From a virus: DNA of 23,517 bases. Positions 7,817 to 19,773 of the stretch are shown piece after piece. A program made the translations under genes and the position numbers. The notes beneath the pieces are model-generated. The model did not search any database. It was given only the letters and a program-made list of their open reading frames with translations, and was not told where the DNA came from. Position 1 is the stretch's first letter; every line of letters starts with the position of its first letter. The stretch lies in IMG/VR virus record IMGVR_UViG_3300025818_000197, positions 1-23,517 of that record, one strand, 5' to 3'.

Positions 7817-9724
7817 CTAAGCTCCTATATCTACTACTTCACAGACATCACCAGTGCAAGCAAATGTCTGGCTTGAGTTAGTACTATCTTCTTTTTCGTA
7901 ATCTGTCAAGAGTGACCAGTCTATTTTTTCTGGCATGAGTGACAATAATGTCTCATATTCTCTCTTGGTTATGTCCTGATAAGGTGCTTGCTGATAGGTG
8001 TGTTCGTTATAAGGTAGGAAAGATACACCTGACATCTCATCAAAATGTTTGTAGACAAACGCACCAACCTCAAACCATTCATCCTTCCTGACGTTGATAG
8101 TCACACTAGGTTTATGCTCACACCAATGTCTCTGATACATGAGCCACATCTCTAGCTGATCAATAGCTGACATATCCTCAGTAACTATTGCGTTGGTAGG
8201 AGACTTGATAGGAAAGCTGAACACTGTAGTCTGCTCAGGTTTCATTACACAAGGTTGACTAGGTATCTTTTGATCCTTCATAAACTGTGTTAGTGGGTCT
8301 TTGTTGTCACCTCGTACAGTCCTTATGTATTGTCTGGAATGACGTGCGTGGATACCTGAGGCACTGTCAACAAGTTGACTGACGGTTCCTGAAGGTTTGA
8401 CACAGGTAATAGCAGTGGAATGATTAATACCAAGATTATCAGCCAGACTACGATTTGTGTTAACCGCCACTTGTCTAAGGCTTTCCAAGTTTTTAGATAG
8501 TCCATTGTTTGTCCTCGTCAATAAAGGGTTATCCATTATGCCTGTTAGAGATACACCTAACAGACGCTCCTCTTCAGTGTTATCCTTCCATATCTTACGT
8601 AAGTATGGGAACTTAGTATACGTAGACTGTATAGTACCTAGTGTTGTAGCTATCTTAACCTTACGTGCCAAGTCACCAAAGTTATCAGCAGACCTGACAA
8701 CAACCTCAGTTAGGTTACAGAACTGATAAGGTCTGAGTATAATCTCACTGCATGGGTTAGTGCCAAAGTCGTAGCTAGGGTCACGTCTTTCAAACTTAGC
8801 TGCTTGTTTCTTACTAGCCTCTCTGTTGAAGACACCACGCTCACCACTACCTGATTCAACTAGAGCCATCCACTCACGCATGAACGACAAGCTATCAGGC
8901 TTCTCTGTGTAGGACACTGAGTTGTTAGCTAAAGCACGTTGAGGGTTGTTAGTCCACCAATCACCTGACTTAGCGTGACGCATCCTATCATCTGACAAGT
9001 TAGACAGACTGATCATAGCTGACCTACGGACACCGCCTACTACAACTACCTCTCCTATCTTACACATAAGGTCGTGACACTCGATAGAGGATAGCTTACG
9101 TCCTTGTGCGTCTTTGAATATCTTGACTGTAAAGGTAAACAAGTCAACTAAAGGAGCAGGTCCACTAGCTCTACCACCAAATGTCTTTAGTCTAGCACCT
9201 GCAGGTCTGACGTTTGACACATCCCACTGAGGTATCTCACCTGCCCACAGTAATGCTAGTAGTTGTCTGAAAGCCTTAGCCCAACCCTCTTTGCTGTCCT
9301 TGACTATGATCTTAGTGTCACTGTCGTATAGCTCAGGTACATCAGGTAGCTTCTGTATGTACTGACGCTCAACTGAGAAGCCTACACCAGTGCCACACAA
9401 CAGGATAAACATAGCCTCATCGAATGACTTGGGGTCATCAACAGGTAAGTAGCTGCAGTTGTAACCTGAGGTGTTGTCTCTATCCAACGCTTTACCTGCT
9501 GTCATCATAGCTCTCATGCTAGGCATGACTTCTAGGTTTAGGATCGCTTGTTCTATCTGATTGACAAAGCTGTCTTTACCCATGACAGGTATGACTACAT
9601 TGGTCATGTATCTGTCTACTGTCTCAGCCCAAGTCTCTCTGCGTTGCTCTTTGTCTAGCCATCGTGCATACCTTGACGTGTGTATGAACGCTTGGTAATC
9701 TGTAGGTAAGTAGTTGTCTCTCAT
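7817..9724 (-). CDS. nrdJ: Adenosylcobalamin-dependent ribonucleotide reductase, class II (monomeric)
   Basis: This enzyme makes deoxyribonucleotides from host ribonucleotides for phage replication, using coenzyme B12 as radical source. In its 635 residues the radical-chemistry residues are visible: Cys90 in YNCSYLP, Cys325 and Glu327 in NPCSEI (thiyl-radical Cys and active-site Glu), Cys336 in FCNLTEV, and the phosphate-binding segment CVKPSGTVSQL at 441. The C-terminal CTGDVC pair (623-628) fits the swinging dithiol that is re-reduced by thioredoxin. It is about 100 residues shorter than the Lactobacillus leichmannii enzyme but carries all the key motifs. It overlaps the MazG gene by 4 nt (ATGA). 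The host presumably supplies cobalamin. Confidence 0.95.
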   Translation of the reverse strand: MRDNYLPTDYQAFIHTSRYARWLDKEQRRETWAETVDRYMTNVVIPVMGKDSFVNQIEQAILNLEVMPSMRAMMTAGKALDRDNTSGYNCSYLPVDDPKSFDEAMFILLCGTGVGFSVERQYIQKLPDVPELYDSDTKIIVKDSKEGWAKAFRQLLALLWAGEIPQWDVSNVRPAGARLKTFGGRASGPAPLVDLFTFTVKIFKDAQGRKLSSIECHDLMCKIGEVVVVGGVRRSAMISLSNLSDDRMRHAKSGDWWTNNPQRALANNSVSYTEKPDSLSFMREWMALVESGSGERGVFNREASKKQAAKFERRDPSYDFGTNPCSEIILRPYQFCNLTEVVVRSADNFGDLARKVKIATTLGTIQSTYTKFPYLRKIWKDNTEEERLLGVSLTGIMDNPLLTRTNNGLSKNLESLRQVAVNTNRSLADNLGINHSTAITCVKPSGTVSQLVDSASGIHARHSRQYIRTVRGDNKDPLTQFMKDQKIPSQPCVMKPEQTTVFSFPIKSPTNAIVTEDMSAIDQLEMWLMYQRHWCEHKPSVTINVRKDEWFEVGAFVYKHFDEMSGVSFLPYNEHTYQQAPYQDITKREYETLLSLMPEKIDWSLLTDYEKEDSTNSSQTFACTGDVCEVVDIGA

Positions 9725-10083
9725 CTCTTGTCACCGTTCCCTCGTAGTGTTCCTCTTTTCTTTCTGCCATGTAGCTTCTCTAAGTTATCGTAGGCTACGG
9801 TCTCCATGTCAATGTTCAGGTCTCTACACAAAGCAGCTATGTACCATAGACAATCACCTATCTCATCAGCTATACCTTCACGGTCAAGCTTACCATCTCT
9901 CATAATCTTCTTTACTTTGTTTGCTACCTCTCCTGCCTCAGCAGCTAAACCCAAAGCAGGGTATATGACTGAGTGTTTCTGATCGTAGATAGCTGTCGTT
10001 GCAGCTTGTTGTTGATACTTGTCCATGTCAAGAGGGTCTTGATTGTAGTACTGAAATGCGTTTATGTCATCTAGGGTAATCAA
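9721..10083 (-). CDS. MazG-like nucleotide pyrophosphohydrolase
   Basis: The protein contains the MazG-fold metal-binding pattern: GLAAEAGEVANKVKKIMRD (EAGE) followed by the second acidic helix EIGDCLWYIAALC (EIGD). Such enzymes hydrolyse NTPs or dNTPs to monophosphates; in phages they are thought to adjust nucleotide pools or alarmone levels. The frame extends to a GTG at 10101, but that GTG lacks a ribosome site. I prefer the TTG at 10083, which has AAGGA 9 nt upstream and overlaps the preceding stop as TTGA, giving about 120 residues (MITLDDINAFQYY...). The 4-nt overlap with nrdJ indicates co-translation. Confidence 0.82.
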   Translation of the reverse strand: MITLDDINAFQYYNQDPLDMDKYQQQAATTAIYDQKHSVIYPALGLAAEAGEVANKVKKIMRDGKLDREGIADEIGDCLWYIAALCRDLNIDMETVAYDNLEKLHGRKKRGTLRGNGDKR

Positions 10084-10271
10084 TTTTCTAAGTCCTTCCA
10101 CTGTCTAATTTCTACATCTAGGTAGAAGTAATCATTCATGTTGATAGTTCCATCGTCTACCAGTTTACGTATGATTGCTTCCTCATCCAAATCATTCTGT
10201 TCCATCAACAACTGTAGTCCGTAGTTATTGACAAGAGCTTCTATCTTACTATCATGATCAAACATTGTCAA
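10080..10271 (-). CDS. Small acidic protein, function unknown
   Basis: This 63-residue acidic protein begins MTMFDHDSKIEALVNNYGLQ and contains QNDLDEEAIIRKLVDDGTIN and YFYLDVEIRQWKDL. No recognised domain is visible. The gene packs directly against the MazG gene and sits 3 nt from the upstream gene, which supports expression as part of the replication operon. It may be helical throughout. Confidence 0.55.
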   Translation of the reverse strand: MTMFDHDSKIEALVNNYGLQLLMEQNDLDEEAIIRKLVDDGTINMNDYFYLDVEIRQWKDLEN

Positions 10272-10274
10272 GCC

Positions 10275-10484
10275 TTAATGTATCCAAAGAGAAGTTTCTT
10301 TTTCGTGAATGATAGGTTCTACTGAAGACTTTAGTTTGTTCATGAAGTTGTAAGCTTCATTAAAGTCTTTGAAGTATATCTCATCATCAAAGACCATACC
10401 TTTTTCTTCAACCATACATACTAAAGCCCACTTGTCACCCTGATCTATTGGACCTTCTAAGAACTGATGTACTTTAACCTCCAT
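10275..10484 (-). CDS. Small protein of unknown function
   Basis: This 69-residue protein begins MEVKVHQFLEGPIDQGDKW and contains YFKDFNEAYNFMNKLKSS. The mixed alternating pattern with a late helix suggests a small alpha/beta fold. A good ribosome site (AAGGGAG) lies upstream of the ATG. I do not recognise the family. It lies in the tight leftward operon between endonuclease I and the MazG gene. Confidence 0.55.
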   Translation of the reverse strand: MEVKVHQFLEGPIDQGDKWALVCMVEEKGMVFDDEIYFKDFNEAYNFMNKLKSSVEPIIHEKETSLWIH

Positions 10485-12609: not shown

Positions 12610-13626
12610 TCAATGTGTGTCTCTCCAATTATACCCTATGTCAGTTGAACCTGCGAGTGGGCAGACCATACCAAACTTTATACCAGTGTCAACAATAGAT
12701 TGCCTTTGTATCTTACCTAGTAGTTCAGCATCTTTCATCTGCCCACGCACTTCTGTTTGCCACTCATCATGAGGCCACGTAACAAGCTTAAACTCAAGGA
12801 ACTGTCTCTTAGCTTTGTAGACCCAATCAAGTGCTGCATGTTTCATTATGGTTGACTCACCATTCTGAAGCATACCTGCTAGTGTCTTGTGTTCTGAAGG
12901 TACTATAACCCTACGTCCATCAAGACCTCTGAACCACCCACGTTTAGCTATGTGTGGTATTACCTTTTTCTTTAACTCAGCAAGTCCTTGAATTGATTGC
13001 ATAAAGTTTTCAACTGCTTGCTTTGCTTCTTTCTGACTGACGTTTAGTATCTGTGCTACCTTGGCATTACCTGCACCTAGTAGGAACGCATAGATGAAAG
13101 TCTTAGCCATATCTCTAGTGACATGTGACATACCCAGAGCCTTACGGTTCAGGTTATGTATGTCTGTCTCATCTTCCTTCTTGCCTGACACGATAGCGTG
13201 TACGTATTCCTCTGACTTCATCAGGTGTGCGAGTACACGTAACTGGATACCCTCAGCATCTGTGCCTACCAAGTAGCAGCCCTTGGGTACACACCATAGC
13301 TCACGTAGTTGACCATCGTATCTGTCCTTCACCTTCTCTACAGCAGTGACAGCATCACCATGAAACTGTGCAGGGATGTTAGCTTGGTTAGGGTTCCTGT
13401 GTGCCATCCTGCCTGTCCATGCACCAACGTGTGTAAAGCTGCCGTGAATACGTGAATCGTCACCACAATGCCCCAGCCACTCCACTAGTGAGGATCGCCT
13501 ACCTTCAAGTGTCAACCACTCTGCTAGACGTTTGCCTCCTGCAGGTGCTGTCTCAGGCAGTGTGTTAAGGTTTGCCTCAGATAAAGTCCATCCGAACTTA
13601 GCAAACTTCTGTCCTCGTTCATCCAT
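12610..13626 (-). CDS. DNA polymerase A, polymerase domain (split gene, C-terminal part)
   Basis: This is the polymerase half of a T7 gp5-type enzyme, about 338 residues. Numbering from the longer frame start at 13638: RIHGSFTHVGAWTGRMAH at 63-80; motif A GTDAEGIQLRVLAHLM with catalytic Asp127; motif B RDMAKTFIYAFLLGAG at 175-190 with the dNTP-contacting Arg/Lys and Tyr183; motif C WPHDEWQTEV with Asp291 and Glu292. The ATG at 13626 is chosen because GAGG lies 6 nt upstream, inside the end of the endonuclease gene, so this part can be translated on its own. Leu187 replaces the conserved motif B Tyr (Tyr530 in T7). The exonuclease half is encoded separately at 13971-14864, in a different frame. 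Confidence 0.9.
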   Translation of the reverse strand: MDERGQKFAKFGWTLSEANLNTLPETAPAGGKRLAEWLTLEGRRSSLVEWLGHCGDDSRIHGSFTHVGAWTGRMAHRNPNQANIPAQFHGDAVTAVEKVKDRYDGQLRELWCVPKGCYLVGTDAEGIQLRVLAHLMKSEEYVHAIVSGKKEDETDIHNLNRKALGMSHVTRDMAKTFIYAFLLGAGNAKVAQILNVSQKEAKQAVENFMQSIQGLAELKKKVIPHIAKRGWFRGLDGRRVIVPSEHKTLAGMLQNGESTIMKHAALDWVYKAKRQFLEFKLVTWPHDEWQTEVRGQMKDAELLGKIQRQSIVDTGIKFGMVCPLAGSTDIGYNWRDTH

Positions 13627-14002
13627 TTTGTTCCTCATGTTTTTCTAAATACCTAAGTGCTCTAGTCACACCTTCAATATCATCACCTAACTTTCCTATA
13701 CCAGTGTTGCAAAAATGACACAGAAAGCCTCTGTACTTACCTGTCTTGTGGTCATGATCAAAGTGTAAGCTTTTAATTTTTCTTCCACAACAATGACATA
13801 AACCTGTATCTAAGTGTTCGTATTTCTTTCTTTCTTTTCTTCTCCACTCTCTCCCCTCATTACAACAAGCCATACATCTAGAATCTCTTGTTGTATTTGT
13901 TGGAGATTTGTGCCTTTTATGAAATCTATCTATAGGTTTTTCTACACTACATATCCTACAAACTCTTGTTTCAACGAAAAGTTCTAGCTGATTCTCTTTC
14001 AT
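13619..14002 (-). CDS. HNH endonuclease of the endonuclease VII type, inserted in the DNA polymerase gene
   Basis: Starting at the ATG at 14002 (MKENQLELFVETRVCRICSV), the 127-residue protein has paired Cys knuckles (CRIC, CMACC, CHCC, CHFC) and the catalytic signature LHFDHDHKTGKYRGFLCHFC followed by NTGIGKLGDDIEGV, the hallmark of the recombination endonuclease VII family (T4 gp49 fold). Relatives of this type often act as free-standing homing endonucleases. It sits exactly between the exonuclease and polymerase halves of the polymerase, overlapping the upstream part by 32 nt and the downstream part by 8 nt, and in a different frame from both. Many Arg/Lys residues (REWRRKERKKYEH) may contact DNA. 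Confidence 0.9.
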   Translation of the reverse strand: MKENQLELFVETRVCRICSVEKPIDRFHKRHKSPTNTTRDSRCMACCNEGREWRRKERKKYEHLDTGLCHCCGRKIKSLHFDHDHKTGKYRGFLCHFCNTGIGKLGDDIEGVTRALRYLEKHEEQNG

Positions 14003-14864
14003 AATCAATATGGCCTTTCGTTTTCTCAAATGGTTTCCATCCTGCTTCCCATAGTCTTTCTATCCGCATCTTTGGTGAGGCAGGGTTGAACTCTATGAAG
14101 TCGTAGCACACTAGCTCAGGGTCTTGCTTTGACCAGTCTACTTGTGTCTTTGCGTGTTTCTTTTGTGCGTTGGTCACGTTACTGTACAGTGTACCGTCAG
14201 CTTTCTTTCTGTACTTGATACGATTGACTTCCTCTAGCTTGGGTGGGAAGTCCTCTTGGAAAGCATCTTCAAGGTGTGCTTTGCGTTGTTCTATCTCATC
14301 AAGTAACTCTTCAGCCTTAGCCTTGTTGAAGTAGAAGCCGTTGTCTGTCATGGTCTGACACAGTATTTGTATGTCATGCTCACATTTTATAGCCCACTCC
14401 CAATCAGGATCATGTATTACTTTCTTGAACTTATCGTACACTCTTAATGTAACTGTAACGTCCTGATGACAGTACTTGATCATCTCATCCGACAGCATCG
14501 AGAAGTCGGAGAAGTCCATCTTGAAGTTACCTAGCCTTATACCCCAAGCCTTGAGGCCATGCCCATGCTTGATGTCGAAGTCAACCAGTCTACTGACAAT
14601 CAGTGTGTCAAGGACTGACTCCAAAGGTATCAAGTCTTTCTTTACAAGGCGATTAATAATAGGAACATCAAAACAGATTCCATTGTGAAATATAAACCTA
14701 TCGTATCTGCTACAGTACTCAATGAATCTCTCCTTCTCTTCCTGTATTGTTGTTAGGTGAACGAAGTGTTCCTTTTCACCTGTCTCTACATCCTCTGCAC
14801 AGATACACCAAATCTTTTCTGGTGTAAGTGATTCTGTTTCTATGTCCATAGCTACACTACGCAT
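13971..14864 (-). CDS. DNA polymerase A, 3'-5' exonuclease domain (split gene, N-terminal part)
   Basis: This part carries the proofreading exonuclease of a T7 gp5-type polymerase. Exo I is AMDIETESL with the Asp/Glu pair, Exo II is FHNGICFDVPII, and Exo III is YCHQDVTVT with the Tyr and Asp in place. The linker to the polymerase domain follows (NPASPKMRIERLWEAGWKPF), and the frame stops shortly after GHIDYERES. The frame opens at 14888, but AGGAG at 14874-14878 best serves the ATG at 14864 (9-nt spacing); the ATG at 14870 is the alternative. The last residues (about RESARTFR) are probably not native, because the coding sequence already overlaps the inserted endonuclease gene there. Confidence 0.9.
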   Translation of the reverse strand: MRSVAMDIETESLTPEKIWCICAEDVETGEKEHFVHLTTIQEEKERFIEYCSRYDRFIFHNGICFDVPIINRLVKKDLIPLESVLDTLIVSRLVDFDIKHGHGLKAWGIRLGNFKMDFSDFSMLSDEMIKYCHQDVTVTLRVYDKFKKVIHDPDWEWAIKCEHDIQILCQTMTDNGFYFNKAKAEELLDEIEQRKAHLEDAFQEDFPPKLEEVNRIKYRKKADGTLYSNVTNAQKKHAKTQVDWSKQDPELVCYDFIEFNPASPKMRIERLWEAGWKPFEKTKGHIDYERESARTFR

Positions 14865-19182: not shown

Positions 19183-19773
19183 TTAAATATTATTTTCTCT
19201 TTTCCATGTAGTCCAAGTGATAGCTTGCAGTACATGTGGCTTGATGTCAACACGCTTTGCAGCCCTGACATATACCTCTTGCATTTGTCTATAGACTTTC
19301 TTTGACATGTTTGTCTTGTCTGTAGTCAGACCTTGCCTGACACCCAGCGCAATGTTCAAGGCATGTCCGTCTATAGTCACCTCATCTAGTCCACGTATGT
19401 TAGAATAGAATGATCTAATCTTTTGCCCATTGAGCCTGTCAAGTATCTCATCATCACTAGTCAAGTTGTCCTCTAGTATTGACCATGCCTTGAGCTTCAT
19501 AGTGTTGTAGCATGACACCTTGAAGTCATCCAAGTCATCACCTTTGACCCATGCCCAGCACATACGCTCACAGTCAGCAATGTTGCGTTCCCATTTGTTG
19601 TTGGGTGACAGTGCAGCCATCACACCAATCACAGTGTTAAGCTTGACACCTGACAGCCCTGATATGATTGAGCAATATGTCTTGGCTTCATCATACCATT
19701 TGTAGCCGTTTGCAATGTCCTCAGTGCTTGCCCTACGGTAAACCTTGAGTATGTTTCTAACGTGTTGTGTCAT
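19183..19773 (-). CDS. Uncharacterised phage protein with HhH-GPD DNA glycosylase-like motifs
   Basis: This 196-residue protein belongs to a type I recognise from several phage groups as uncharacterised. The segment VIGVMAALSPNNKWERNIAD resembles the helix and LSxQxT loop of endonuclease III-type glycosylases. Further on, LNGQKIRSFYSNIRGLDEVT then IDGHALNIALG aligns with their helix-hairpin-helix and catalytic Asp region. Lys118 and Asp135 are 17 residues apart, against 18 for the Lys/Asp pair of E. coli endonuclease III. This suggests base-excision or base-specific DNA recognition but is a motif-level inference. There is no Cys4 iron-sulfur cluster. The start overlaps the preceding stop as ATGA. 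Confidence 0.5.
   Translation of the reverse strand: MTQHVRNILKVYRRASTEDIANGYKWYDEAKTYCSIISGLSGVKLNTVIGVMAALSPNNKWERNIADCERMCWAWVKGDDLDDFKVSCYNTMKLKAWSILEDNLTSDDEILDRLNGQKIRSFYSNIRGLDEVTIDGHALNIALGVRQGLTTDKTNMSKKVYRQMQEVYVRAAKRVDIKPHVLQAITWTTWKRENNI

Follow-up and report, generated by a model that had tools for sequence, protein, structure and literature searches.

A family of marine Roseobacter phages encodes its split family A DNA polymerase as two separate proteins. The phage represented by the window (the whole analysed stretch of 23,517 nucleotides, from IMG/VR virus record IMGVR_UViG_3300025818_000197) carries a nuclease gene between the two halves, and we consider it highly likely that the enzyme is a two-polypeptide family A polymerase whose split junction serves as a hotspot for such genes. 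This one phage group keeps intact, split but empty, and split and occupied states of the gene, together with examples suggesting each of the two orders of events; a single codon is contested by at least five nuclease types, and in one genome the halves stand far apart. How the events were ordered, how the start codon was taken over and how a family A polymerase in two pieces assembles become directly testable questions, cultured phages being at hand (CRP-4 with an intact gene, CRP-5 and ICBM2 with a split one), and the system lets one ask how an essential enzyme survives division, and whether the cut or the invader came first.

Layout of the split gene and position of the break

The nearest cultured relatives of the window are Veravirus phages (Zobellviridae, Cobavirinae), with CRP-5 at 80% and ICBM2 at 75% for the polymerase half. 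Elsewhere in the window, a DUF7178 protein (E=1.1e-42) is encoded at 19183-19773. The features at the split polymerase are as follows.

14864-13971, minus strand: exonuclease half of the split family A DNA polymerase (3'-5' exonuclease and first thumb part), 297 aa, ending in ...KTKGHIDYERESARTFR before the stop
13971-14002, minus strand: 32-nt dual-coding stretch holding the exonuclease C-terminal tail and the nuclease start, equivalent to the exo/pol overlap in empty relatives
14002-13619, minus strand: free-standing Endo VII-like (DHHRN-type) nuclease, 127 aa, PF02945 at E=1.6e-17, PHROG endonuclease VII, fold matches to Hpy99I and T4 Endo VII
13624-13642, minus strand: ribosome site (GAGG) and new ATG of the polymerase half, within the 3' end of the nuclease gene, SD energy -6.3
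13626-12610, minus strand: polymerase half (remaining thumb, palm and fingers; motifs A, B and C), 338 aa, beginning MDERGQKFAKFGW

The exonuclease, nuclease and polymerase ORFs lie on one strand in three successive different frames, and overlap by 32 nt (exonuclease/nuclease) and 8 nt (nuclease/polymerase, ATGGATGA). The Exo motifs DIET, HNGICFD and YCHQD are confined to the first ORF, and the polymerase motifs A (TDAEG), B (RDMAKTFIY) and C (PHDE) to the third. The corresponding Pfam assignments are PF01612/PF13482 (DNA_pol_A_exo1/RNase_H_2) for the exonuclease half, PF02945 (Endonuclease_7) for the nuclease and PF00476 (DNA_pol_A) for the polymerase half. A preliminary description of the sequence had reported this separation, with an HNH gene between and overlapping the two halves and with the ribosome site of the downstream half inside that gene, and both observations held. 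Two starts are available for the polymerase half, of which 13626 is better placed than 13638 because its ribosome site is stronger (SD energy -6.3 versus -3.7) and because the ATG at -30 is the conserved one. The nuclease ATG, for its part, occupies the place of the polymerase start codon in empty relatives.

Introns and inteins both occur in phage polymerase genes (PMC6892783, PMC10580990), but the probability that a group I intron, an intein or a sequencing error accounts for the arrangement is negligible. An Rfam search of the insert region gave no match at E<=5, and a group I intron was rejected on this ground; the insert is nearly wholly coding, in another frame with stops. An intein would lie in frame, and what was found is three different frames with stops. 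Nor is the split a sequencing error, because the same arrangement recurs at 100% identity in further IMG/VR datasets (L007-L009) and because the annotations of the isolates CRP-5 and ICBM2 each list two polymerase ORFs, the ICBM2 record naming both halves. The preliminary description had likewise seen neither intron nor in-frame intein, and the sequencing error for which it had allowed was not borne out.

When the junction was mapped against intact PolA, as that description had proposed, the break fell at about residue 358/359 in the alignment to T7 gp5. It lies not in the exo-pol linker, where it had been placed, but inside the N-terminal part of the polymerase region, which we take to be the thumb, as in T7 gp5. 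At the break itself the Pfam DNA_pol_A match sets in, from profile position 39-54, so that the exonuclease half carries the beginning of the polymerase region. In a structural model of the intact polymerase L165, the best fold match of which was T7 DNA polymerase, the equivalent residues 286-304 are of low confidence and flanked by better-defined parts; in a model of such moderate quality (pLDDT 70, pTM 0.51) this loop may weakly support the break site.

The window nuclease is assigned to the DHHRN (Endo VII-motif) family from its sequence features, namely the residues D82, H83, H85, R91 and N99, the zinc CxxC pairs C69/C72 and C95/C98, and a C-terminal Endo VII motif (PF02945 at residues 64-130 of the 136-aa ORF), to which a second resolvase in the phage is added. 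It carries an additional N-terminal CxxC...CxxC pair, and its model (pLDDT 88) best matches the restriction enzyme Hpy99I, followed by T4 endonuclease VII. A search of the window's own record found this copy only. A T7-type endonuclease I (PF05367, 10578-11015) is encoded in the window as well, which speaks against the nuclease being the essential resolvase; a second resolvase in the phage is an argument that has been used for homing members of the DHHRN family (PMC6083498). Cleavage and homing by the window nuclease are predicted activities. On the other hand, Endo VII includes true resolvases, and similar genes stand directly behind pol in T7-like cyanophages (SS120-1, L096-L117), so the protein could be a resident Holliday-junction resolvase or replication nuclease in an incidental position. 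We regard this as improbable, since at this site sister phages have a different type of nuclease or lack one, endonuclease I is encoded by the phage itself, and Hpy99I ranks ahead of T4 Endo VII as a structural match.

Junction states and evidence for two polypeptides

Several hundred relatives were drawn from IMG/VR, and duplicates were removed before the junctions were classified. Slightly different de-duplication and filtering gave two sets, one of 124 junctions, of which 20 were intact, 61 split and empty and 43 occupied by an insert, and one of 155 (37 intact, 77 empty split, 41 with an insert). An insert-free homologous site is accordingly present in close relatives, as 77 empty splits and 37 intact junctions. 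Among cultured phages, CRP-4 and CRP-9 have a single intact polA, and in CRP-5 and ICBM2 the polymerase is already two overlapping ORFs with no nuclease between the halves. The exonuclease of the empty splits ends shortly past KTKGH, and in 77/77 of them the flanking motifs are spaced by 1 modulo 3, whereas they are in frame in intact genes, a net difference of +1 nt. No nuclease remnant was recognisable in the empty splits.

The start codon of the downstream half is conserved. An ATG for the polymerase half lies within the exonuclease tail in 72 of the 77 empty splits, and the same ATG is found in 41/41 insert junctions; in the other five empty splits (L332-L334, L338, L342) it is absent and a GTG nearby is the apparent start. 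In 59 of the 61 empty splits of the first set a TAT codon supplies the ATG, and in the other 2 a CAT codon does, while TAT makes up 27% of the Tyr codons elsewhere in these exonucleases. A strong SD precedes the new polymerase start in 93% of insert-bearing loci. Median dN/dS in window-like phages is 0.09 for the exonuclease, 0.08 for the polymerase and 0.20 for the nuclease, and all three genes are under purifying selection there.

In T5S1 (L422, PQ867845) the exonuclease half (9610-10470) and the polymerase half (13195-14208) are 2.7 kb apart with a primase/helicase gene between them, and must therefore be separate polypeptides. The gene is broken at the same KTKGH motif, albeit on a long branch, and its break is possibly an independent split at the same point. 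The halves of the family A polymerase presumably assemble into one active enzyme, a view to which the purifying selection and T5S1 lend indirect support.

That the polymerase is kept in the same +1 frame at 77/77 empty junctions would also be expected if empty relatives made a single polymerase by programmed +1 frameshifting, but we give this explanation very little credence. The codons before the exonuclease stop vary and the overlaps range over 26-53 nt, so that no signal for programmed frameshifting is apparent, and with no conserved slippery site found it was rejected. Moreover, the start codon is conserved against codon bias, and frameshifting is impossible across the inserts or in T5S1.

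Nuclease turnover and the order of events

At least five distinct insert types occur among the 41 inserts at the junction: Endo VII/DHHRN (PF02945), HNH_3 (PF13392), T5orf172 (PF10544), HNH (PF01844) with a resolvase-type HTH (HTH_7), and an unclassified HNH-like type that bears the motif HHVDHMWP and matches no Pfam nuclease. One more HNH-like protein is also present among the inserts. Two tandem nuclease genes are present in L245, and two small ORFs without nuclease features occupy the junction in place of a nuclease in L066 (3231-3795). The inserts start at the polymerase's old ATG, except in L022 and L023, where this ATG opens a short ORF and the nuclease begins 70 nt later. Nearly all of them supply, at their end, a new polymerase start codon with a ribosome site, the new ATG lying 30 nt before the YGW motif in 39/43 loci, mostly as ATGGATGAACG.

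The identity of the insert is decoupled from that of its flanks. Different nuclease types are found in 81 of 180 locus pairs with at least 95% polymerase and at least 90% exonuclease identity, and in 69 of the 99 same-type pairs the inserts are less than 60% identical. Both halves of the window are 97% identical to those of L015, with the nuclease at 37%, and its polymerase half is 99% identical to that of L039, which has a different nuclease type. Median dS is about twice as high for the nuclease (0.61) as for the flanks (0.24-0.28). Empty and occupied junctions also occur in nearly the same context, with flanks 96-99% identical in the pairs L082/L065, L053/L047, L053/L049 and L182/L086; for L082 (empty) and L065 (HNH_3) the flanks are 98-99% identical and the polymerase proteins in the tree set are identical. 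The pattern suggests that the junction is a hotspot, entered repeatedly by unrelated, presumably homing, nuclease genes. No description of it as such was found in the open-access papers searched, and a term search of two publications on cultured relatives returned no mention of the split.

Nuclease genes were also observed at other borders. Those of the HHVDHMWP type stand directly upstream of the polA/exonuclease start in L167 (1958-2638), L177 (668-1336), L157 (2084-2605), L053 (2507-3088) and L049 (216-800), so that a second hotspot seems to exist at the 5' border of polA. In T7-like cyanophages and related contigs (L096-L117, L005, L006) the polymerase gene is immediately followed by an Endo VII-like gene that overlaps its end. 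A tree of Endo VII sequences was compatible with a single arrival of the junction Endo VII genes as well as with several.

The order of events was assessed with quick maximum-likelihood trees, one per half. The split sequences form one clade in the polymerase and exonuclease trees (support 99 and 97), with the exception of L170. Strong exo/pol recombination as the reason for the differing identities of the two halves was set aside, exonuclease branches being generally longer. An empty ancestor costs 11 changes against 12 for the other ancestor in the polymerase tree, and 13 against 15 in the exonuclease tree; the empty split is thus slightly favoured as the ancestral state, by one or two changes. 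Because it is the cheaper ancestral state, some dozen nuclease arrivals probably took place in a gene that had been split beforehand, and in the main clade the split may well have preceded the nuclease, which we hold to be the likelier order. The preliminary description had the nuclease divide the polymerase. This was not supported: 77 junctions, among them those of the closest cultured relatives, CRP-5 and ICBM2, share the break point without having a nuclease, and the nuclease as sole cause of the split was rejected.

The reverse order, in which a homing endonuclease gene split an intact polA and the empty splits are scars after its loss, is a possibility that we rate as rather unlikely. The ancestral-state margin is small, a short similar sequence flanking the inserts (ATGAAAGAGAAY / ATGGATGAACGAGG) could recombine out, and L170 appears to be an insertion of this very kind. 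In this single contig of 5 kb an HNH_3 gene, which shares 77% identity with its counterparts in split phages, lies inside polA with flanks that match the intact L165, L169 and L194. On the 3' side the flank next to the insert shares 100% identity with theirs, and on the 5' side identity is 98-100% in the block that lies past the adjoining 60 nt, whereas the last 60 nt of the 5' side are closer to the split clade (83%) than to the intact genes (68%), a stretch that looks like a short co-conversion tract. L170, as far as one contig can, shows what seems to be the opposite order, a cassette inserted in an otherwise intact polA lineage. Against a nuclease-first history for the main clade, the deep split lineages are seen mostly empty, loss-only histories require 28 and 23 changes while gain-only histories require 12-13, and the empty splits differ from intact genes by the net +1 nt with nothing recognisable left of a nuclease.

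With the split placed first, the following mechanism is proposed. The replicative family A polymerase of a Cobavirinae/Veravirus-like phage would be made as an exonuclease and a polymerase polypeptide, following an ancestral net +1 frameshift in the thumb loop past the KTKGH motif; the second half would have been rescued by a start codon within the gene, which is ATG but in some deep lineages GTG. The overlapping stop/start would then have become a hotspot at which free-standing endonuclease genes, presumably of the homing kind, insert. An incoming nuclease gene would take the polymerase's former ATG and end in a ribosome site and a new start (usually ATGGATGA), by which both halves stay expressed. 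Recombination in the near-identical flanks would allow nucleases to be swapped at this single site, of which the window holds the Endo VII/DHHRN type. More speculatively, and with the odds clearly against it, the junction might be a maintained docking site, the polymerase being kept in two pieces so that nuclease cassettes come and go harmlessly via the dual-coding stop/start, and the resident nuclease paying its way by excluding rivals or by driving exo/pol exchange between phages.

Comparison with known systems

HMO-2011-type PolA proteins carry a Cys-rich insertion, which the preliminary description had suggested could be an in-frame relic of such an endonuclease. This was rejected on grounds of position and sequence kinship. 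In CRP-1 (PolA, L264 10474-12525) the CxxCxGxG segment occupies residues 288-327, N-terminal of the FNxxS motif, while the split lies C-terminal of FNxxS, past the AGWxPxxKTKGH stretch, and a BLASTP comparison of CRP-1 PolA with the window nuclease gave no similarity. The DnaJ-like zinc finger of this PolA type immediately precedes FNxxS, close to the position of the thioredoxin-binding insertion of T7 gp5, and could be a processivity-factor site.

The OM43 phages MEP401 and MEP402, which belong to the same family, Zobellviridae, also have a DNAP divided over two ORFs, which a small ORF separates (PMC10580990). In MEP401 (L263 6111-8221), however, the break falls just before motif A and the intervening 77-aa ORF14 has no reported homologue; with the break elsewhere in the gene, the same event was rejected. 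The window nuclease shares with F-CphI and the DHHRN homing endonucleases the DHHRN residues, the C-terminal motif and a phage that has T7 endonuclease I (PMC6083498), but it is associated with neither psbA nor an intron, carries the extra N-terminal CxxC...CxxC pair, and is a homing enzyme by prediction.

Nucleases that divide essential phage genes are known from Aeh1 nrdA/mobE, T4 60/mobA/39 and phage 25 43A/seg43/43B (PMC2988022). The likeness to Aeh1 that had been noted was upheld: a nuclease ORF lies between two enzyme halves without intron or intein, insert-free relatives exist, and in both cases the gene is a free-standing HNH-type nuclease between the halves of an essential enzyme (PMC2988022). 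The Aeh1 NrdA halves are separate polypeptides that work together (PMC2988022). In Aeh1 the division of nrdA is attributed to the insertion itself (PMC2988022), whereas most relatives here are split without a nuclease, and many nuclease types use the old start codon of the downstream half.

A split replicative polymerase is also found in gene 43 of Aeromonas phages 25 and 44RR (43A, seg43, 43B), with a seg-type nuclease in phage 25 and an untranslated spacer in 44RR (PMC2988022). Whether the nuclease split this gene of T4-like phages or entered a split one was left explicitly unresolved, the review proposing that gene 43 may have been split before the nuclease came in (PMC2988022). Gene 43 encodes a family B polymerase and involves another nuclease and two phages, in contrast to the 118 split junctions here and their intact, empty and many-insert states. 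Finally, in HEG-islands, which lie at gene-exchange boundaries, different homing nuclease genes likewise replace one another at one position beside essential replication genes, including DNA polymerase (PMC10448857), but the site here is a dual-coding stop/start within one enzyme.
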